This document shows, piece by piece, positions 18,482 to 58,739 of a DNA stretch of 64,000 bases. This DNA comes from Sinimarinibacterium arenosum (GTDB lineage Bacteria > Pseudomonadota > Gammaproteobacteria > Nevskiales > Nevskiaceae). Below the pieces are notes generated by a model. It made no database searches. It was not told the origin of the DNA and worked only from the letters and a program-made list of their open reading frames with translations. Position 1 is the first letter of the stretch; every line of letters begins with the position of its first letter. The stretch covers positions 62,001-126,000 of the forward strand of contig NZ_SUKF01000003.1 of NCBI RefSeq assembly GCF_005047655.1, in the 5' to 3' direction. A program made the position numbers and the translations under genes.

Positions 18482-18573
18482 GATTGCGAATCCGTAAAGA
18501 GCAGTGGCAAAAAAAGGGGCATAAGGCTAGCACAGCGGGGGGCGGAAACGCCTGTTTGAGGCGGCTGTGCGGT

Positions 18574-18680
18574 GTCTCGATACGGCCCCGTTCGGGCCCT
18601 GCTCGACATGAACGGTGGGTGTTTGGGGCAGGGGATTTAATCAGTCCCCGTTCGCACCGAGTAGCGCAGCGTATCGAGGT
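18574..18680. repeat. REPIN-like inverted repeat pair 1
   Basis: One copy (18574-18617) reads gtctcgatacg, a GGCCC/GGGCC stem, then ctgctcgacatgaacgg. After a 30-40 bp AT-richer spacer an inverted copy follows (18656-18680). The gap 18482-18980 between the acyl-CoA dehydrogenase and the UDP-GlcA epimerase holds this pair and the next and no gene that I can see. Confidence 0.85.
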
Positions 18681-18748
18681 GGTGCGCCGATGCTGCTGAA
18701 TTTGCCGGGCCTGGGCTTTCGATCAGGATGCCCGTTGAAGTCAGAGCC

Positions 18749-18855
18749 GTGTCTCGATACGGCCCTGCGGGCCTACTCGACATGAACGGTGGGTGATTGG
18801 GAGAGGGAATTTTAACAATCCCCGTTCACGTCGAGTCGCGCAGCGTATCGAGACG
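18749..18855. repeat. REPIN-like inverted repeat pair 2
   Basis: Left copy gtctcgatac with stem GGCCC/GGGCC then tactcgacatgaacgg. The spacer is similar to that of pair 1 (gggtgattgggagagg). The right inverted copy is ccccgttcacgtcgag followed by gcgtatcgagacg. The shared spacer shows both pairs descend from one doublet element. Confidence 0.88.
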
Positions 18856-27996: not shown

Positions 27997-28089
27997 CGTT
28001 CGGGTCGAGTCGCGCGAAGCGCGTATCGAGACCTCGCATCGCAGTCGCTTGGCGGCTCGCGATGGGCTCCGCTCTCGACGCGAACGGCA
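27997..28089. repeat. REP-like copy plus distant inverted half
   Basis: A full copy (27997-28032) reads cgttcgggtcgagt, stem CGCGC-GAA-GCGCG, then gtatcgagac. An inverted half ctctcgacgcgaacgg follows at about 28073-28089. The 368-bp gap 27905-28272 otherwise contains only a hairpin followed by an A run at 28198-28214 and the galE leader; no gene is seen. Confidence 0.8.
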
Positions 28090-31963: not shown

Positions 31964-32203
31964 CGCTCGCATCGAGTAGTTCACGCAGTGGACGCTTTGA
32001 GCTTCCCGGGTTCAATGCAAAACATCATCCGTTCGCATCGAGTAGTCCGCGAAGCGGGCGTATCGAGATGCCAAAGGTCCGCCACTACACTCCCGTTCGC
32101 CTCAAATAGCTCACGCATTGAGCGTATCGAGACGTCCAAACACAACCTCAACATCCCTCCGTTCGCATCGAGTAGTCCGCGAAGCGGACGTATCGAGATG
32201 CCT
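31964..32203 (+). repeat. direct array of four REP-like units, about 65-bp period
   Basis: Four units in the same orientation begin near 31964, 32030, 32094 and 32160. Each has an arm like cgttcgcatcgagtag, a short stem, then gcgtatcgagatg. Stems are gttca/tggac, ccgc/gcgg, gctca/tgagc and gtccgc/gcggac. Units are about 40 bp and separators about 20-25 bp, all different. The array fills the 343-bp gap between manB and manC. Confidence 0.88.
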
Positions 32204-46293: not shown

Positions 46294-46338
46294 CGTCTCG
46301 ATACGCCCCGTATCACGGGCCACTCGATGCGAGCGGGT
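46294..46338. repeat. REP-like copy between fcl and wza
   Basis: Reads gtctcgatac, stem GCCC/GGGC around a gtatca-type loop, then cactcgatgcgagcggg. Single copy with a slightly divergent right arm. It lies 15 bp after the fcl stop. Confidence 0.78.
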
Positions 46339-50816: not shown

Positions 50817-51014
50817 CTGCGTTTCGACGCACTCCGATGGGGTTGCTCGATGCGCAGGTGAGGGGGGCGTAATGCCCCTTGCTTCAATCGCCCGTTCTGG
50901 TCGAGTAGAACCCGCAAGAGTGAGTATCGAGACCGGCGTTGCGGTTTGGCGCCGTCCGTGAGGGGTTGCGCGACGTTTCGATACGCGCTCGCGGTGCTGC
51001 TCGATGCGAGCGGG
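50817..51014. repeat. three diverged REP-like copies
   Basis: Copies lie at about 50817-50861 (gtttcgacgc, then tgctcgatgcg), 50892-50933 (cgttctggtcgagtag, then gagtatcgagac) and 50974-51014 (gtttcgatacg, then tgctcgatgcgagcgg). Stems here are poorer than in other copies. They fill the gap between the H-NS gene and the GT-C-like gene; no coding sequence is seen. Confidence 0.72.
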
Positions 51015-53977: not shown

Positions 53978-55999
53978 TCATGGCGCCGGCAGCCGAGTCC
54001 AGACGCCGACCGGGCATTGACCGTACCAGCCGTTGATGCGGAAGCGGTATTGGCGGCGGATCTGATCATTGAGTTCCCATGCGCCCTTGTCGCCGTAGGT
54101 CCGGCAATCGCGGGCCAGCCACAGGATGTATTCGATCTTTTGCGAGGTTAGCCATTCCAGCGCATCCGGCAGCTGACGCTTGTACAGCTTGCCGGTCTGG
54201 TCAACGCGGCTGGCGACTTCACCGAGACCGCCGCGCCAGGTGTATTCGTGGTCCGGCCAGCCCAGGTAGGACGGTTTGTTGCCGAACAGCGTCAGCACGC
54301 CGGTGTCGGTGTAGGCGTTGCCGGCGATCGATTCCAGTGCGATGCCGGGTGGCGCGCTTTGCAGGTACTGCACGATCTCGCGCTGCGCCTGATCGCGCGT
54401 GTACAGGTACATGCCGTTGAGCTGCCCCGCTTCCGCGGGCTGGAAGCTGAGCCAATGGCGTGCATACCAGTAGCTGCTGGTCAGCGTCGGCGCCAGCAGG
54501 ACGGCAACCAATGCCAGCGTGAGTTTACGGCGGTCTGCCAGCAGCGCTGTGCCCAGGCCGAACATCGACACCGACCAGATCCAGCCCCACCACTTCAGGA
54601 CGCTGTTGGTGCGCTCGTACTGATTGATCGACAGGTCGTTGATATAGGCCAGTTCGGAGAAGGCCAGCAACAGGAGGGTGTTGAGCGCCAGGAATACTCC
54701 CAGCGAACGGCGCGGGAGCAGAACCAGCGCGAGGATGGCCAGGCCGACAATCGGCCACCACTGCAGCAGCCAGGGCACCAGCGGGCTGTGCAGCTTGCCC
54801 GAGACCCACAGCATTGGCGTCGCGAGTTGACGCGACGCCAGCCCCATCAGGATCGGCAGCGAGACCACCAGTGCAGCGGCGCCGCCAATTGCGACGTGGG
54901 TGATCAGCGTCGGGCCGGGGAGGGGCGGTGGCGGCATATCACTGCTGCGTCCGATGCCGCGCAGCAGATTCCACCCGCACCAGAATGCGACCGTGAGTGC
55001 GGCCAGCGGAAAGATCCAGGTGTTGGCGGAGATGCAGATGACCGGCAGTGCGCCCAGCGCTAGGGCAAGGCGTTTGCGCAGTGTTGGCGATGTGGCTGTG
55101 GATTCGAAGGCGAACATTGCGGCGATCAGGGCGAAGCCGATCAGCAGCCCCAGCAAAGTCGGATGAAAATCGCCGAGATAGAACTGATACGCGAACGGTT
55201 CCAGCGGCAACTCGGGCGGAATCGGCGCGTTGGCGGCAGGCGCCTGAGTCTGCAGTCCGGTGCCACCACCTCCGCTGAAGCGTGCATCGGCCGTGACGGC
55301 GCGAAGCGTGATCTGACCTGCGTCGATATGCGGGTGGCTGGTGATCTTGACCGCGATGTACGGCGCGGCGCCGCTGCCGCCGAGGATCAACGCAGCCGTG
55401 ATCAGCGCGGCCCGCGCGCGTCCGCCGCTCTGCGTCCGTGCGACATGCCAGATCAGATAGGCCGCAGCGCCCATCAAGATCACTGCACCCAGGTTGTAGG
55501 CGTAGCCGGGCGAAAACTTCAGCACGCGCACCAGCAGGCCGGCCCAGTAGTACTGCAACGGGTAGTAGAAATCGAAAGCGAACGGTGGCAGCCAGCGATC
55601 GATGCCGGGCAGGCGGCCGCTGTCGATGAAATGGGTGATGAAGAACAGGTCGGTGACGCGCTCGGACGTCGGGCTGATGCTGGGGAAGGCCCAGCGCCAG
55701 GCCAGCGGATACAGGAAAAAGGCTGCGGCCACGAGTACTGCGCCGGGCCGCAGCGTGCTGGCGTACGCGGTCTTCAGTAGCCAGACGCTGTAACCGCCGA
55801 GCGCTATCGCGGCGGCGAACAGCAGCGGTTGCGGAATCGCGATGTAGTGCTCGAGCCCCAGGCCCAGCATTGCGGCGAAGATCGCCAGCAGCACGGCGCC
55901 CAGCACGCGGTCGCCGAATACACGCTCGCCCCAGTGGCATGCAGCCACCACTGCCACGCCGGCTGCGAGCAGTATCGAGATCAGAAACAGTGTGGCCAT
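53978..55999 (-). CDS. DUF2298-like multi-spanning GT-C-type membrane protein
   Basis: A 673-residue protein with about twelve hydrophobic helices. The first loop has SERVTDLFFITHFIDSGRLP, GIDRWLPPFAFDFYYPLQYY. The C-terminal segment has AGNAYTDTGVLTLFGNKPSY, LGWPDHEYTWRGG, matching the pattern of DUF2298 (YYY) proteins. A Gly-rich loop follows TADARFSGGGG near residue 245. It is a paralog of the 51071 gene. With the GtrB-type gene it forms a leftward pair separated by 79 bp. It probably transfers a lipid-phosphate-linked sugar to a surface glycan; substrate unknown. Confidence 0.75.
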   Translation of the reverse strand: MATLFLISILLAAGVAVVAACHWGERVFGDRVLGAVLLAIFAAMLGLGLEHYIAIPQPLLFAAAIALGGYSVWLLKTAYASTLRPGAVLVAAAFFLYPLAWRWAFPSISPTSERVTDLFFITHFIDSGRLPGIDRWLPPFAFDFYYPLQYYWAGLLVRVLKFSPGYAYNLGAVILMGAAAYLIWHVARTQSGGRARAALITAALILGGSGAAPYIAVKITSHPHIDAGQITLRAVTADARFSGGGGTGLQTQAPAANAPIPPELPLEPFAYQFYLGDFHPTLLGLLIGFALIAAMFAFESTATSPTLRKRLALALGALPVICISANTWIFPLAALTVAFWCGWNLLRGIGRSSDMPPPPLPGPTLITHVAIGGAAALVVSLPILMGLASRQLATPMLWVSGKLHSPLVPWLLQWWPIVGLAILALVLLPRRSLGVFLALNTLLLLAFSELAYINDLSINQYERTNSVLKWWGWIWSVSMFGLGTALLADRRKLTLALVAVLLAPTLTSSYWYARHWLSFQPAEAGQLNGMYLYTRDQAQREIVQYLQSAPPGIALESIAGNAYTDTGVLTLFGNKPSYLGWPDHEYTWRGGLGEVASRVDQTGKLYKRQLPDALEWLTSQKIEYILWLARDCRTYGDKGAWELNDQIRRQYRFRINGWYGQCPVGVWTRLPAP

Positions 56000-56187
56000 A
56001 GAGGGTTCGTATGCGCCCCGGATGCGGCGCCGCGATGTTGGAGTTGGAAACGGCCTGCGCCGCTACCCTACACAGGCCGATTTATCGCGTAAAGGGAGCG
56101 ACGGCGCAGCGTGCCTGCAGAGGTGCACGTCGATACCGTGCCTTGCAGCCTTGCCAGTTCGGCGCTCTGCCGCCCCGTCAGCGTGGC

Positions 56188-56271
56188 GTCTCGATACGTC
56201 CCGCTGGGACTACTCGACGTGAACGGGAGTGTTTTTGGGGAGATCACCTTCGCGCCCCCGTTCGGGTCGAG
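56188..56271. repeat. REPIN-like pair just upstream of the GIY-YIG gene
   Basis: Left copy gtctcgatac with stem GTCCC-GCT-GGGAC then tactcgacgtgaacggg (56188-56231). A short AT-richer spacer is followed by an inverted half copy ccccgttcgggtcga (56257-56271). The start codon of the GIY-YIG gene is 47 bp further on. The 318-bp gap 56000-56317 contains no other gene that I can support. Confidence 0.85.
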
Positions 56272-56317
56272 GGGGCCACAATGGCTATATCGGGACCGCG
56301 CACTGCGGGTGAAGTAG

Positions 56318-56605
56318 ATGGCATTCTGGACTTACATGCTGCGCTGTCGTGACGACAGCTACTACGTAGGACATACCGACGACCTTGATCGCCGCATCGG
56401 GGAACATCAAAGCGGAGCGATTCCCGGGTACACCTGCATGCGCCGTCCGCTGGTGCTGATGTGGTCGCAGGACTTTGCCAGCCGCGAGGAAGCGCTATCC
56501 GCCGAACTGCAGATCAAGCGCTGGAGTCGCGCCAAGAAAGAGGCATTGATCCAGGGTGACTGGAAGGCTTTGAGCCAAGCAGCGCGGAAGCCGACGCGAC
56601 GGTGA
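56318..56605 (+). CDS. single-domain GIY-YIG nuclease-like protein
   Basis: A 95-residue protein that is almost entirely the GIY-YIG domain. WTYMLRCRDDSYYVGHTDDLDRRIGEHQ supplies the YM-x10-YVG signature (residues 5-17), the catalytic Arg (R26) and the helix Glu/His. YTCMRRPLVLMWSQDFASREEALSAELQIKRWSRAKKEALI supplies the conserved Glu in the A-x-x-x-E-L-Q-IK-x-W segment. This is the YhbQ/UPF0213-like group, whose biological role is mostly unknown. It is bordered on both sides by copies of the window-wide palindromic repeat and has no other partner. A solitary repair-type role is the alternative. Confidence 0.9.
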   Translation: MAFWTYMLRCRDDSYYVGHTDDLDRRIGEHQSGAIPGYTCMRRPLVLMWSQDFASREEALSAELQIKRWSRAKKEALIQGDWKALSQAARKPTRR

Positions 56606-56647
56606 TGGTCCAACAGAGCGCTTTGATTGCGCTGACTCAAGTCCTGC

Positions 56648-56893
56648 GGCCACTCAATGCGAACAGCAGGTTCCCGGGGATCCGCCCCTAACACCGCCCG
56701 TTCGGGTCGAGTAGCGCCTGCCAAGGCGTGTATCGAGACCGTGCGCCAGTCCCGAACCCTCAGCCACTCACTGATGCGCTGTGTCTCGATACGCCCCTAC
56801 GGGGCTACTCGACGTGAACGGTTGTGCGTTTTGGGGATCACATCCAGCGCCACCCATTCGGGTCGAGTAGCGCCTGCCAGGGCGTGTATCGAG
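56648..56893. repeat. cluster of three REP-like copies and one half after the GIY-YIG gene
   Basis: A half copy (56648-56664, cactcaatgcgaacagc) is followed by cgttcgggtcgagtag-CGCC/GGCG-tatcgagac (56699-56739). Next is the inverted gtctcgatac-GCCCC-TAC-GGGGC-tactcgacgtgaacgg (56782-56822), then cattcgggtcgagtag-CGCC/GGCG-tatcgagg (56856-56893). They fill the 307-bp gap to suhB, the densest cluster in the window; no gene is present. Confidence 0.88.
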
Positions 56894-56912
56894 GCCGCGC
56901 AACCTCAGCGGC

Positions 56913-57704
56913 TCAGGCGTCAGCGGCGGGCCGGCGCTGCGGGAAAAGGTTTTCCAGGTCGGCCATCAGCTTGGTGGTGCTTGCGACGATGTTGCCGGTT
57001 GCCAGCACATCGTCGCCGCCGTCGAGTTCACGCACGACGCCGCCCGCTTCCTGCACCAGCACGATGCCTGCGGCGATGTCCCAGGGGTTCAGGTTGAGTT
57101 CCCAGAACCCGTCGAGCCGGCCGGCAGCAACGTAGGCCAGATCCAATGCAGCCGCGCCAGCGCGACGAACGCCGGCGGTGTTGGCGGCGACATTGCGCAT
57201 CATCGGCATATAGCGGTCGAGATGTTCTTCACGCAGCGGCACGCCCGTACCAATCAGCGCGGAGCCAATTTCCTTGCAGCCGCTGACGCGAAGCTTGCGG
57301 TTGTTCAGCGTGGCGCCATCGCCGCGGCTGGCGCAGTACAGGTCCTGCGTGCAGGGCGCGTAGATCACGCCATGTTCCAGGCGTCCGCGAACCTGGATGC
57401 CGATCGATACCGCGAAGTGCGGCAGCCGGTGCAGGAAATTGGTGGTGCCATCGAGCGGGTCGATGATCCAGACCACGTCATTCTTGCCGTGCTCACCGGA
57501 CTCTTCAGCCAGGATCGCATGGTCGGGGTAGTTCTTGTGAATCGTGCGGATGATCTCGGCTTCGGCGCCGCGATCGACCATGGACACGAAATCATTGCGG
57601 CTCTTGCGCTCGACCTGCAGCTGATCCGCGCGGTCGTAGTGGCGCATGATGAAGTTGCCGGCTGAGCGCGCAGCCATGACGGCGATATTGACCAGCGGTT
57701 GCAT
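56913..57704 (-). CDS. suhB: inositol monophosphatase family protein SuhB
   Basis: A 263-residue Mg-dependent phosphatase. Metal-binding motifs are ILAEESGE near 66-73 and WIIDPLDGTTNFLHRLP, with the C-terminal WELNLNPWDIAAGIVLVQEAGG. SuhB hydrolyses inositol phosphates and in Enterobacteria also assists rRNA transcription antitermination. ATG 57704 gives the normal start (MQPLVNIAVMAARSAG); an in-frame start at 57755 would overlap trmJ. It is divergent from trmJ with only 39 bp between, the usual Gammaproteobacterial arrangement. Confidence 0.95.
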   Translation of the reverse strand: MQPLVNIAVMAARSAGNFIMRHYDRADQLQVERKSRNDFVSMVDRGAEAEIIRTIHKNYPDHAILAEESGEHGKNDVVWIIDPLDGTTNFLHRLPHFAVSIGIQVRGRLEHGVIYAPCTQDLYCASRGDGATLNNRKLRVSGCKEIGSALIGTGVPLREEHLDRYMPMMRNVAANTAGVRRAGAAALDLAYVAAGRLDGFWELNLNPWDIAAGIVLVQEAGGVVRELDGGDDVLATGNIVASTTKLMADLENLFPQRRPAADA

Positions 57705-57743
57705 GAGAAAAAGAGCCTGGAGGAAGCGAATAGAATACCACGC

Positions 57744-58535
57744 ATGGCCTCCCAAACTCTTCCCGAAACGCCGGTCGATCCCCTGGCGCGCATCCGCGTG
57801 GTTCTGGTTTCAACGCAGCACCCGGGCAATATTGGCGCCGCGGCACGTGCGATGCTGACCATGGGGCTGACCGATCTGGTACTGGTCAGCCCCGATCGTT
57901 ACCCCCATCCGCAGGCGCGGGCGTCCGCTGCGCACGCCTCGCCGGTGCTGGACCGGGCGCGAGTGGTTGCGAGTCTCGACGAGGCGGTCGCGGACTGCGG
58001 CTGGGTTGTCGGATTGTCGGCGCGCCAGCGCACGCTCGGGGACGAACCGATGAAGCCCTGGGAATCCGCGGCCCGCGCGCTGTCGATCGTGCCGCAGGCT
58101 CCCGTGGCTTTTGTCTTCGGCTGTGAGCGCACTGGCTTGACCAATGAGCAGATCGATCGCTGTCACGCGACCACACTGATTCCGGCCAATCCCGGCTATA
58201 CCTCGCTGAATCTGGCGCAGGCAGTCCAGGTGATCGCGTACGAGCTGCGGCGCACGGTTCAGCCGGACGTGCCGGCCGTTTCCAGCAAGCGCGATCACCC
58301 CTGGTACGCGCCGCCCGCCGCCGAGGAGATGGAGCGGTTCTACGAGCATCTGCAGCGGGTGCTGCTGGCCACCGGCTTCATTGATCCGACCAATCCGCGG
58401 CAGTTGATGCGCCGGCTGCGGACTTTCTTCAATCGCTCCGCGCCGGATCGCAACGAGCTGGGCATCTTGCGCGGCATCCTGACTTCGGTCGAAAAGCCGA
58501 AGCAGCGGCGGATTCCGTTTACGGACGCGGAGTAG
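57744..58535 (+). CDS. trmJ: tRNA (cytidine/uridine-2'-O-)-methyltransferase TrmJ
   Basis: A 263-residue SPOUT enzyme methylating the 2'-O of position 32 in tRNA. Motifs: VVLVSTQHPGNIGAAARAMLTMGL near the N-terminus, VAFVFGCERTGLTNEQIDRCH and IPANPGYTSLNLAQAVQVIAYEL forming the knot, then a C-terminal helical extension ending KPKQRRIPF. ATG 57744 gives the usual N-terminus. It is first in the rightward run leading to cysE and the isc-type genes. Confidence 0.95.
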   Translation: MASQTLPETPVDPLARIRVVLVSTQHPGNIGAAARAMLTMGLTDLVLVSPDRYPHPQARASAAHASPVLDRARVVASLDEAVADCGWVVGLSARQRTLGDEPMKPWESAARALSIVPQAPVAFVFGCERTGLTNEQIDRCHATTLIPANPGYTSLNLAQAVQVIAYELRRTVQPDVPAVSSKRDHPWYAPPAAEEMERFYEHLQRVLLATGFIDPTNPRQLMRRLRTFFNRSAPDRNELGILRGILTSVEKPKQRRIPFTDAE

Positions 58536-58564: not shown

Positions 58565-58604
58565 GGTTTCGATACGCCGACGCGGCCAGCTGCTCGACCC
58601 AAGC
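58565..58604. repeat. REP-like copy between trmJ and cysE
   Basis: Reads gtttcgatac, stem GCCG-ACG-CGGC, then cagctgctcgaccc. The right arm is diverged. It is the rightmost copy found. Confidence 0.75.
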
Positions 58605-58739
58605 GTGTGGTGCTGGACAACGCGGCAAGCCGCACGCGTTATGGGCTAGCGTGAATGTCATCATCAAGCTGGCGCCCGAATCCGGACCGCAACGGTCTAC
58701 AATGCGCATCCCGTAGCCATCAGGTCGATCGAGCAGCCC

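Follow-up and report, generated by a model that had tools for sequence, protein, structure and literature searches.

Palindromic repeats are widespread in bacteria, and in the open-access literature, as far as its accessible text goes, the only class with a described mobilising enzyme is the GTAG-tagged one, which is served by the RAYT transposases. The cleavage and strand-transfer chemistry of RAYTs, which serves here as the basis for comparison, is treated in the accessible part of PMC8266576, and the persistence of repeats after the loss of their RAYT is reported in the available sections of PMC6006769. The 2013 survey of Di Nocera et al. (PMC3733652), in its accessible portion, presents the CGTC-tagged REPs as a class without a dedicated transposase, supposes that the relevant enzyme vanished or was replaced, and names Neisseriae, Sinorhizobium meliloti, Azospirillum lipoferum and Novosphingobium aromaticivorans among the hosts. 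Our search of open-access full-text literature found no link of bacterial GIY-YIG genes to such repeats, although one may have appeared in print elsewhere; in the accessible part of one paper (PMC9465073), a GIY-YIG gene and a RAYT gene merely share one table.

The window analysed here is a stretch of 64,000 nucleotides from Sinimarinibacterium arenosum, in which a short GIY-YIG gene lies among copies of a palindromic unit (Table 1). Members of the GIY-YIG superfamily are characterised by a motif with catalytic Tyr, Gly, Arg and Glu residues. The product of the window gene, recognised in the earlier note as a 95-residue GIY-YIG protein, has PF01541 as its sole Pfam match (E 8.7e-19; 68.1 bits vs. 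the curated cut-off of 22.6). The residues of the YM and YVG signature given in that note are present, but they are separated by eight residues and not by ten (Y6-M7, eight residues, then Y16-V-G18). Among 119 sequences of the subfamily to which this protein belongs (sub1), Y6 is retained in 117 (with gaps in the other two), Y16, R26 and E63 in all 119, and G18 and H30 in 118 each. Thus, both the Pfam cut-off and the catalytic residues assign the window protein to the GIY-YIG nuclease superfamily, with a predicted nuclease activity. The nearest solved structures are PDB 1zg2 (E 1.8e-21) and PDB 1ywl (E 2.3e-17), of the UPF0213 / YhbQ-YazA type. Chains with WD repeats that were also returned by the structure search, with E values down to 1.9e-7, were rejected as spurious, with no stretch of them passing alone.

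Table 1. Coordinates of the GIY-YIG gene and of the palindromic units in the window
Feature	Position	Strand	Basis
Hairpin unit CGTTC-ACGTC-GAGTA-stem-GTATCGA-GACG, upstream of gene	56187..56225	-	pattern and fold
Decayed partner unit, starting with CCCGTTCGGGTCGAG	56257..56300 (right end approximate, by eye)	+	repeat family D3
GIY-YIG nuclease gene (sub1; activity predicted), 95 aa, one catalytic domain	56318..56605	+	ORF list; PF01541; catalytic residues conserved
Hairpin unit downstream of gene	56699..56740	+	pattern; fold z -2.7
Hairpin unit, left half of downstream doublet	56782..56820	-	pattern at lower pairing threshold; fold
Hairpin unit, right half of downstream doublet	56855..56896	+	pattern at lower pairing threshold; doublet fold
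Dispersed doublet	18573..18681	- (18573-18614), + (18649-18681)	pattern
Dispersed doublet	18750..18855	- (18750-18788), + (18823-18855)	pattern
Dispersed single unit	27997..28033	+	pattern
Dispersed units 32030-32070 and 32160-32200	32030..32200	+	pattern; accompanied by two weaker 45-nt family copies, one between and one before them
Dispersed unit	46294..46335	-	pattern at lower pairing threshold
Dispersed unit	50893..50934	+	pattern
Dispersed unit	58565..58605	-	pattern at lower pairing threshold

The general build of the unit is CGTTC-NNNNY-GAG-[apical part]-TCGA-RN'N'N', and its window variant reads GAGTA-stem-loop-stem-GTATCGA. The claim that palindromic repeats border the GIY-YIG gene is confirmed, and the repeats exceed chance expectation: the pattern TCGATACGN{4,20}CTACTCGA occurs 14 times in the source genome, and its reversed control does not occur at all. 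The arrangement described in the earlier note, a pair of repeats before the gene and three and a half after it, holds for the upstream side, where one of the two is decayed, but the downstream side has three. Of the proposed distances, up to 50 bp upstream and 100 bp downstream, the latter agrees with the 93 bp between the stop codon and the next full unit, but the nearest full unit upstream is about 92 bp from the start codon. The downstream doublet forms a single long hairpin when folded as DNA (z -5.4, equalled by none of 200 shuffles), and the four single units tested have z values of only -0.9 to -2.7. No Rfam match at the gathering level was found between positions 55000 and 58000, and no site was found in the promoter and terminator scans of this region. 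We also considered the window repeat as a CGTC-tagged REP, that is, one with a CGTC-like tag, an 8-9 bp stem starting AT/AT, and a loop of 4-5 nt, and rejected this assignment: the units read CGTTC...GAGTA-stem-GTATCGA, and the pattern of a true CGTC REP gave only two chance-like matches in the window.

The arms of the repeat covary. In the outer stem of 33 distinct units of type B, 91.5% of the cells are paired vs. 67.6% after shuffling, and 39 cells are changed on both sides vs. 11.4; neither value was reached in any of 500 shuffles, and the signal is lost when the partner is shifted by 1-3 columns. Of the five covariation measures applied to these units, two are not clearly above the shuffles, namely the coarser counts of pairs with a double change (4 vs. 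2.7; 45 of 500 shuffles) and of further pair types (12 vs. 9.9; 30 of 500 shuffles). For 48 distinct arm pairs, almost only of types B and C, the Watson-Crick fractions add up to 3.98 of 5 vs. a shuffled mean of 2.38 (0 of 2000 shuffles). The GAG and TCGA elements are conserved in the units, and the stem and the apical part are variable.

A search of 58 genomes of the same family revealed seven other close copies of the gene (59-67% identity, E 7.5e-35 or better) in five genomes (G040, G044, G048, and two copies each in G047 and G049). All seven have palindromic units on their flanks that share the build but not the letters, and, with the window copy included, a unit lies within 300 bp of 8/8 orthologues vs. 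0/24 other GIY-YIG loci of the family; the unit-like match beside the UvrC domain of the source genome (L017) we take to be chance. The check proposed in the earlier note, that close homologues should be flanked by the hairpin, therefore turned out in its favour. The opposite outcome named there, homologues free of the repeat, is found to the letter and not in its sense: the exact hairpin TCGATAC...TACTCGA is missing from L020-L024, where units of the same build with lineage-specific letters are present. We therefore abandoned the exact hairpin as a criterion and kept it solely as the local variant of the window.

A profile of the eight orthologues was searched against GTDB contigs, and the best 80 of at least 568 relatives were analysed; these originate mainly from Sphingomonads, but also from Solimonas, Methylobacter, Thiocapsa, Burkholderiales, and one Chloroflexi MAG. 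In 72 of these best 80, a core composed of CGTTCNNN followed by CT, TC or CC and by GAG occurs within 300 bp of the matched segment. Among the same 80 loci, the density of the core is 8.2 per kb at 0-100 bp, 2.6 per kb at 100-200 bp and 0.05-0.10 per kb beyond 1 kb, and the reversed core does not occur within 2 kb. As a general criterion, the CGTTC core was replaced by the GAG/TCGA unit with a pairing stem: since tags vary between lineages, the core is found in only 11/38 copies of the phylum set described below.

The same association is general across a sample of 398 proteobacterial genomes drawn evenly from the phylum. The profile splits this sample into the sub1 clade, with 38 further matches (E 2e-22 or better), and the rest (E 9e-21 or worse). 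Of the 38 further sub1 copies, all of which were examined, 33 have a GAG/TCGA unit with a pairing stem no more than 300 bp away, vs. none of 21 of the matches outside sub1 (L180 and 20 others; Fisher 1.3e-11). With rougher gene positions the count is 33, 32 or 31 of 38, and with located genes it is 33. One of the 21 loci, L209, encodes a sub2 protein (see below) according to the tree and has no CGTC match. The relation to the repeats, which the earlier note had derived from position only by analogy to RAYTs, is thereby supported. The units are seen, for instance, in Sphingomonas parapaucimobilis and Methylobacterium bullatum, and several copies have CCTCATCCTGAGG...CTCGAAGGA versions of the unit. 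No unit was detected at L158, L171, L177, L178 and L179, nor at the 44%-identical sub1 copy of S. paeninsulae.

A further group of GIY-YIG genes outside sub1 has a repeat association of its own. With a pattern that follows the definition of Di Nocera et al. (CGTCATTCCCGCGAANGCGGGAATCC and variants of the stem), a CGTC REP was found within 300 bp of 16/25 such loci of the family of the source genome (16/24 without the mis-located L036), among them the second GIY-YIG gene of the source genome (C4, L016). There are 43 of these REPs up to 200 bp away, none at 200-1200 bp and four farther out, and neither class of repeats was found at the seven YhbQ-like copies. A profile built from 12 proteins of this second subfamily (sub2) has matches in 99 of the 398 genomes at the threshold of E 1e-20. 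Of the 29 sub2 loci of the phylum with flanking sequence, to which this count refers, 23 have a CGTC REP within 300 bp (23 or 22 with rougher positions), the exceptions being L221, L231, L233, L234, L237 and L239. The two associations do not cross over: GAG/TCGA units and CGTC REPs are present, respectively, at 33/38 and 0/38 sub1 loci, and at 0/29 and 23/29 sub2 loci, and both are absent from the 21 loci outside sub1. The repeats beside sub2 genes fit the CGTC REP class by their CGTC, TGTC or CCTC tag and a pairing stem starting with AT. The sub2 gene of Neisseria gonorrhoeae has dRS3-like CGTC units on both sides, CGTC REPs are also near the sub2 genes of the S. meliloti plasmid pSymB, A. 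lipoferum and Aeromonas caviae, and in Photobacterium the nearest one is at +176. In N. aromaticivorans and Planktothrix, hairpins with other stems, missed by the CGTC expression, are visible by eye on both sides of the gene.

In plasmid AZO_p3 of A. lipoferum 4B (L251, 1489-1782), the sub2 gene and its CGTC REPs are located between sufB and sufC, within the suf operon. A sub2-like gene of Planktothrix agardhii plasmid p1 (L256) lies between a restriction gene of MmeI type and the DISARM gene drmA, and the TGTCATTCTGAG...AAGAATCTC hairpins on both its sides represent a further kind of repeat. This locus and the Chloroflexi locus L109 resemble those of the Proteobacteria. Another sub2-like gene (L025, G010) is preceded by a CTGTCATTCTGAGCGCAGCGAAGAATCTC inverted repeat unmatched by the CGTC expression.

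In a tree of 113 proteins, labelled by subfamily and not by detected repeats, and with the mis-located L036 dropped, both repeat-bearing subfamilies are on one side of a branch with support of 100/97. Sub2 forms one group (100/100), and the other side comprises the remaining proteins together with L178, a sub1 match without units. For the 45 proteins of sub1, the class of the unit closest to the gene tracks the enzyme tree, with 17 changes vs. 29.6 after shuffling (0/200 as low), a pattern to which the kinship of species contributes. L178 was left out of this test because the tree groups it with repeat-free proteins, and it was retained among the 38. Paralogues provide a control for species kinship. 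In the ten genomes with at least two unit-bearing sub1 copies, the classes of units differ in seven (G047, G049, G073 by the majority of units, G271, G286, G358 and G406), agree in two (G085 and G380) and overlap in one (G081). For instance, in G047 and G049 one paralogue has GAGT...GTATCGA units and the other GAGCYTGTCGA units. The copies of the CGAAG class in G271, G286, G358 and G406 cluster in the tree (100/96), separately from the remaining copies of these genomes.

At the level of genomes, at least 20 matches to CCTGAGN{4,30}TCGAAGG are present in 24/28 phylum genomes with sub1 vs. 17/369 without it (source genome excluded). At least 15 matches to the CGTC pattern are found in 62 genomes, of which 40 have sub2 (of the 99 with it) and 22 have no sub2 match at E 1e-20; among the other 336 genomes 59 have sub2. 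The thresholds of 20 and 15 were chosen after the counts had been seen, and the counts as well as the presence lists were extracted manually. The expectation that genomes without the gene lack the repeat is thus borne out statistically, but it has clear exceptions: G050 lacks a sub1 gene and yet has 116 matches to the general unit pattern, and in the genus of the window G039 has 48 matches without the gene and G000 has 31 with it. In G008, a member of the family with 61 matches, many of them regular CGTTCCTCCCGAGTAG hairpin doublets, there is likewise no sub1 gene; its GIY-YIG gene L030 is of sub2 and has CGTC REPs. The earlier note saw no RAYT in the window. As regards a RAYT elsewhere in the source genome bordered by the window hairpin, the finding of which the earlier note had held to speak against its proposal, none was found: the genome has one weak Y1_Tnp match, with no hairpin units in its 1.5-kb flanks.

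The tags of the nearest units point outward in 106/118 cases of the GTDB-contig set and in 31/41 and 23/30 of two sub2 sets, and in only 34/53 (p 0.05) of the sub1 phylum set. In Solimonas, a pair of genes identified by eye as encoding DUF1330 and RtcB brackets the cassette, which is forward in G049 and inverted in G047. At the corresponding site of G050, likewise a Solimonas genome, a segment of about 620 bp that contains the gene in G049 is replaced by about 160 bp of other sequence, and the 4-kb stretch at this site contains no units (L242) vs. four in G049. Thus, G050 represents an empty site together with repeats that outlived their enzyme. We found no clean empty site for the location of the window itself; in G043 the two genes that neighbour the window gene are separated by different sequence, which includes a small ORF, H-NS-like by eye, and in the other genomes of the genus the second neighbour was not seen in the stretch covered. 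The phylum genomes with sub1 have one to three copies of it and tens to more than 100 repeat matches, and many Sphingomonad copies occupy one place (on the nrdR side), which means that movement of the gene itself is rare in this group. In many of the best 80 loci (of at least 568), the GIY-YIG frame continues through the repeat into the next gene, which in five loci scanned encodes a SpoU-type RNA methyltransferase (two), MeaB (two) or JAB (one). The linkers of the run-on frames contain repeat-encoded peptides, e.g., PVRPEVSKG and PAHPEPVEG. Such frames of Sphingomonads and Burkholderiales (L056-L135) may be real fusion proteins or read-through ORFs.

Taken with the specificity of repeat types for subfamilies and paralogues, these results make it probable that the locus represents a REPtron-like unit whose enzyme, in place of a tyrosine (HUH) transposase, is a GIY-YIG nuclease that processes its cognate palindromes. 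The enzyme would recognise the cognate palindrome extruded as a single-stranded DNA hairpin or a cruciform, through the conserved GAG/TCGA bulge, and would nick it, and repair of the break would then copy the doublet to new places; binding, nicking and copying are what we infer from the genomic patterns. GIY-YIG enzymes cut DNA by hydrolysis, without a covalent link between protein and DNA, and for this reason the joining step, unlike that of RAYT, would have to be done by host repair. Several observations argue against this reading: the sub1 (5/38), sub2 (6/29) and S. paeninsulae copies at which units were not detected, the repeats without sub1 in G050 and G039, the 22 of 62 CGTC-rich genomes without sub2, the weak polarity of sub1 tags, the two unclear measures of covariation, and the single place of the Sphingomonad copies.

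Three other explanations were weighed against the one above. The nuclease could be a caretaker, which resolves or cuts hairpins and cruciforms of the palindromes for the passage of replication and is retained next to them for this purpose, with the repeats spreading by other means. Such an enzyme would likewise co-occur with the repeats, and the GIY-YIG relatives ANKLE1 and HIGLE of the SLX1 lineage cut branched DNA, according to the accessible part of the literature; even so, we regard this role as unlikely, since it leaves unexplained why units occur tens of bp away on either side of the gene itself and why paralogues of the same genome have different repeat classes at their own flanks, and since the repeat-rich, enzyme-less G050 indicates that resolution by the enzyme is not essential. 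Transposition of the whole repeat-gene-repeat segment as an autonomous element, with the dispersed doublets as its short non-autonomous derivatives, appears less probable still. The empty site of G050, the inversion in G047, the different neighbours among genomes and the insertion between sufB and sufC would all suit it, but one to three gene copies stand against tens to more than 100 repeats, many Sphingomonad copies stay in place, and the inversion could stem from recombination between inverted repeats.

That ordinary intergenic repeats or terminators, at an insertion hot spot or in a regulatory role, merely adjoin a nuclease gene with no functional tie to it seems to us very improbable. REP-like repeats are mainly intergenic, the units are placed immediately outside the ORF, and the reading frame of two copies extends into a unit, all of which a coincidence would allow. 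It is contradicted by two subfamilies having two kinds of repeats without crossover, while other GIY-YIG genes have neither, by the drop of the core density of about 100-fold within 1 kb (best 80 of at least 568 relatives), and by the window region having no terminator-like site and no Rfam match. The REPtron-like reading thus remains the one we prefer. We further incline, with somewhat less assurance, to the view that bacterial palindromic repeats without RAYT have their missing mobilising enzymes in the GIY-YIG nucleases, sub2 serving CGTC REPs (including Neisseria dRS3) and sub1 the bulged GAG/TCGA class with the window repeat, and that these nucleases constitute a second, independently evolved class of REPtrons operating by hydrolytic cutting and host repair. 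The repeat-flanked GIY-YIG genes span several proteobacterial classes, and the question of the CGTC enzyme raised by the 2013 survey becomes testable. If true, this view would point to a function for numerous small proteins whose only annotation is 'GIY-YIG nuclease family protein' and would explain the repeat-encoded peptide linkers in fused ORFs.

Among the known systems, UPF0213 / YhbQ-YazA proteins are similar in size to the window protein, and the YhbQ-like copies have neither class of repeats (0/7). GIY-YIG homing endonucleases of the I-TevI type have the same catalytic fold. Homing endonucleases are selfish nucleases that spread DNA by provoking repair, and the same logic is proposed here. 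Unlike them, the window gene is free-standing and intergenic, not in an intron (the intron check being the Rfam search of positions 55000-58000), encodes 95 aa with the catalytic domain only and no DNA-binding extension, and is flanked by a dispersed palindrome and not by one cognate site. The CGTC REPs, including Neisseria dRS3 and Rickettsia RPE-4/6, are exactly the class that flanks sub2 genes; the HH doublets of the window unit are similar to the dominant dimer type of the survey of these REPs, as given in its accessible portion (PMC3733652), and the window repeat differs from them by its GAG/TCGA bulge. The REPtron of RAYT, GTAG-tagged REPs and REPINs differs from the present locus in its enzyme, which here is of GIY-YIG type by its sole PF01541 match and not a Y1/HUH tyrosine transposase, so that joining through phosphotyrosine is not expected, and in its tags, which here are CGTTC, CCTC or CGTC and not GTAG. 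The two systems are alike, as far as the accessible text of PMC6006769 and PMC3733652 describes the REPtron, in a small nuclease gene located between copies of its own palindrome, here at 33/38 sub1 and 23/29 sub2 loci with further copies dispersed in the genome, in dispersed inverted doublets, in several types of repeats matched to several enzymes, and in the occurrence of repeat-bearing genomes without the enzyme.
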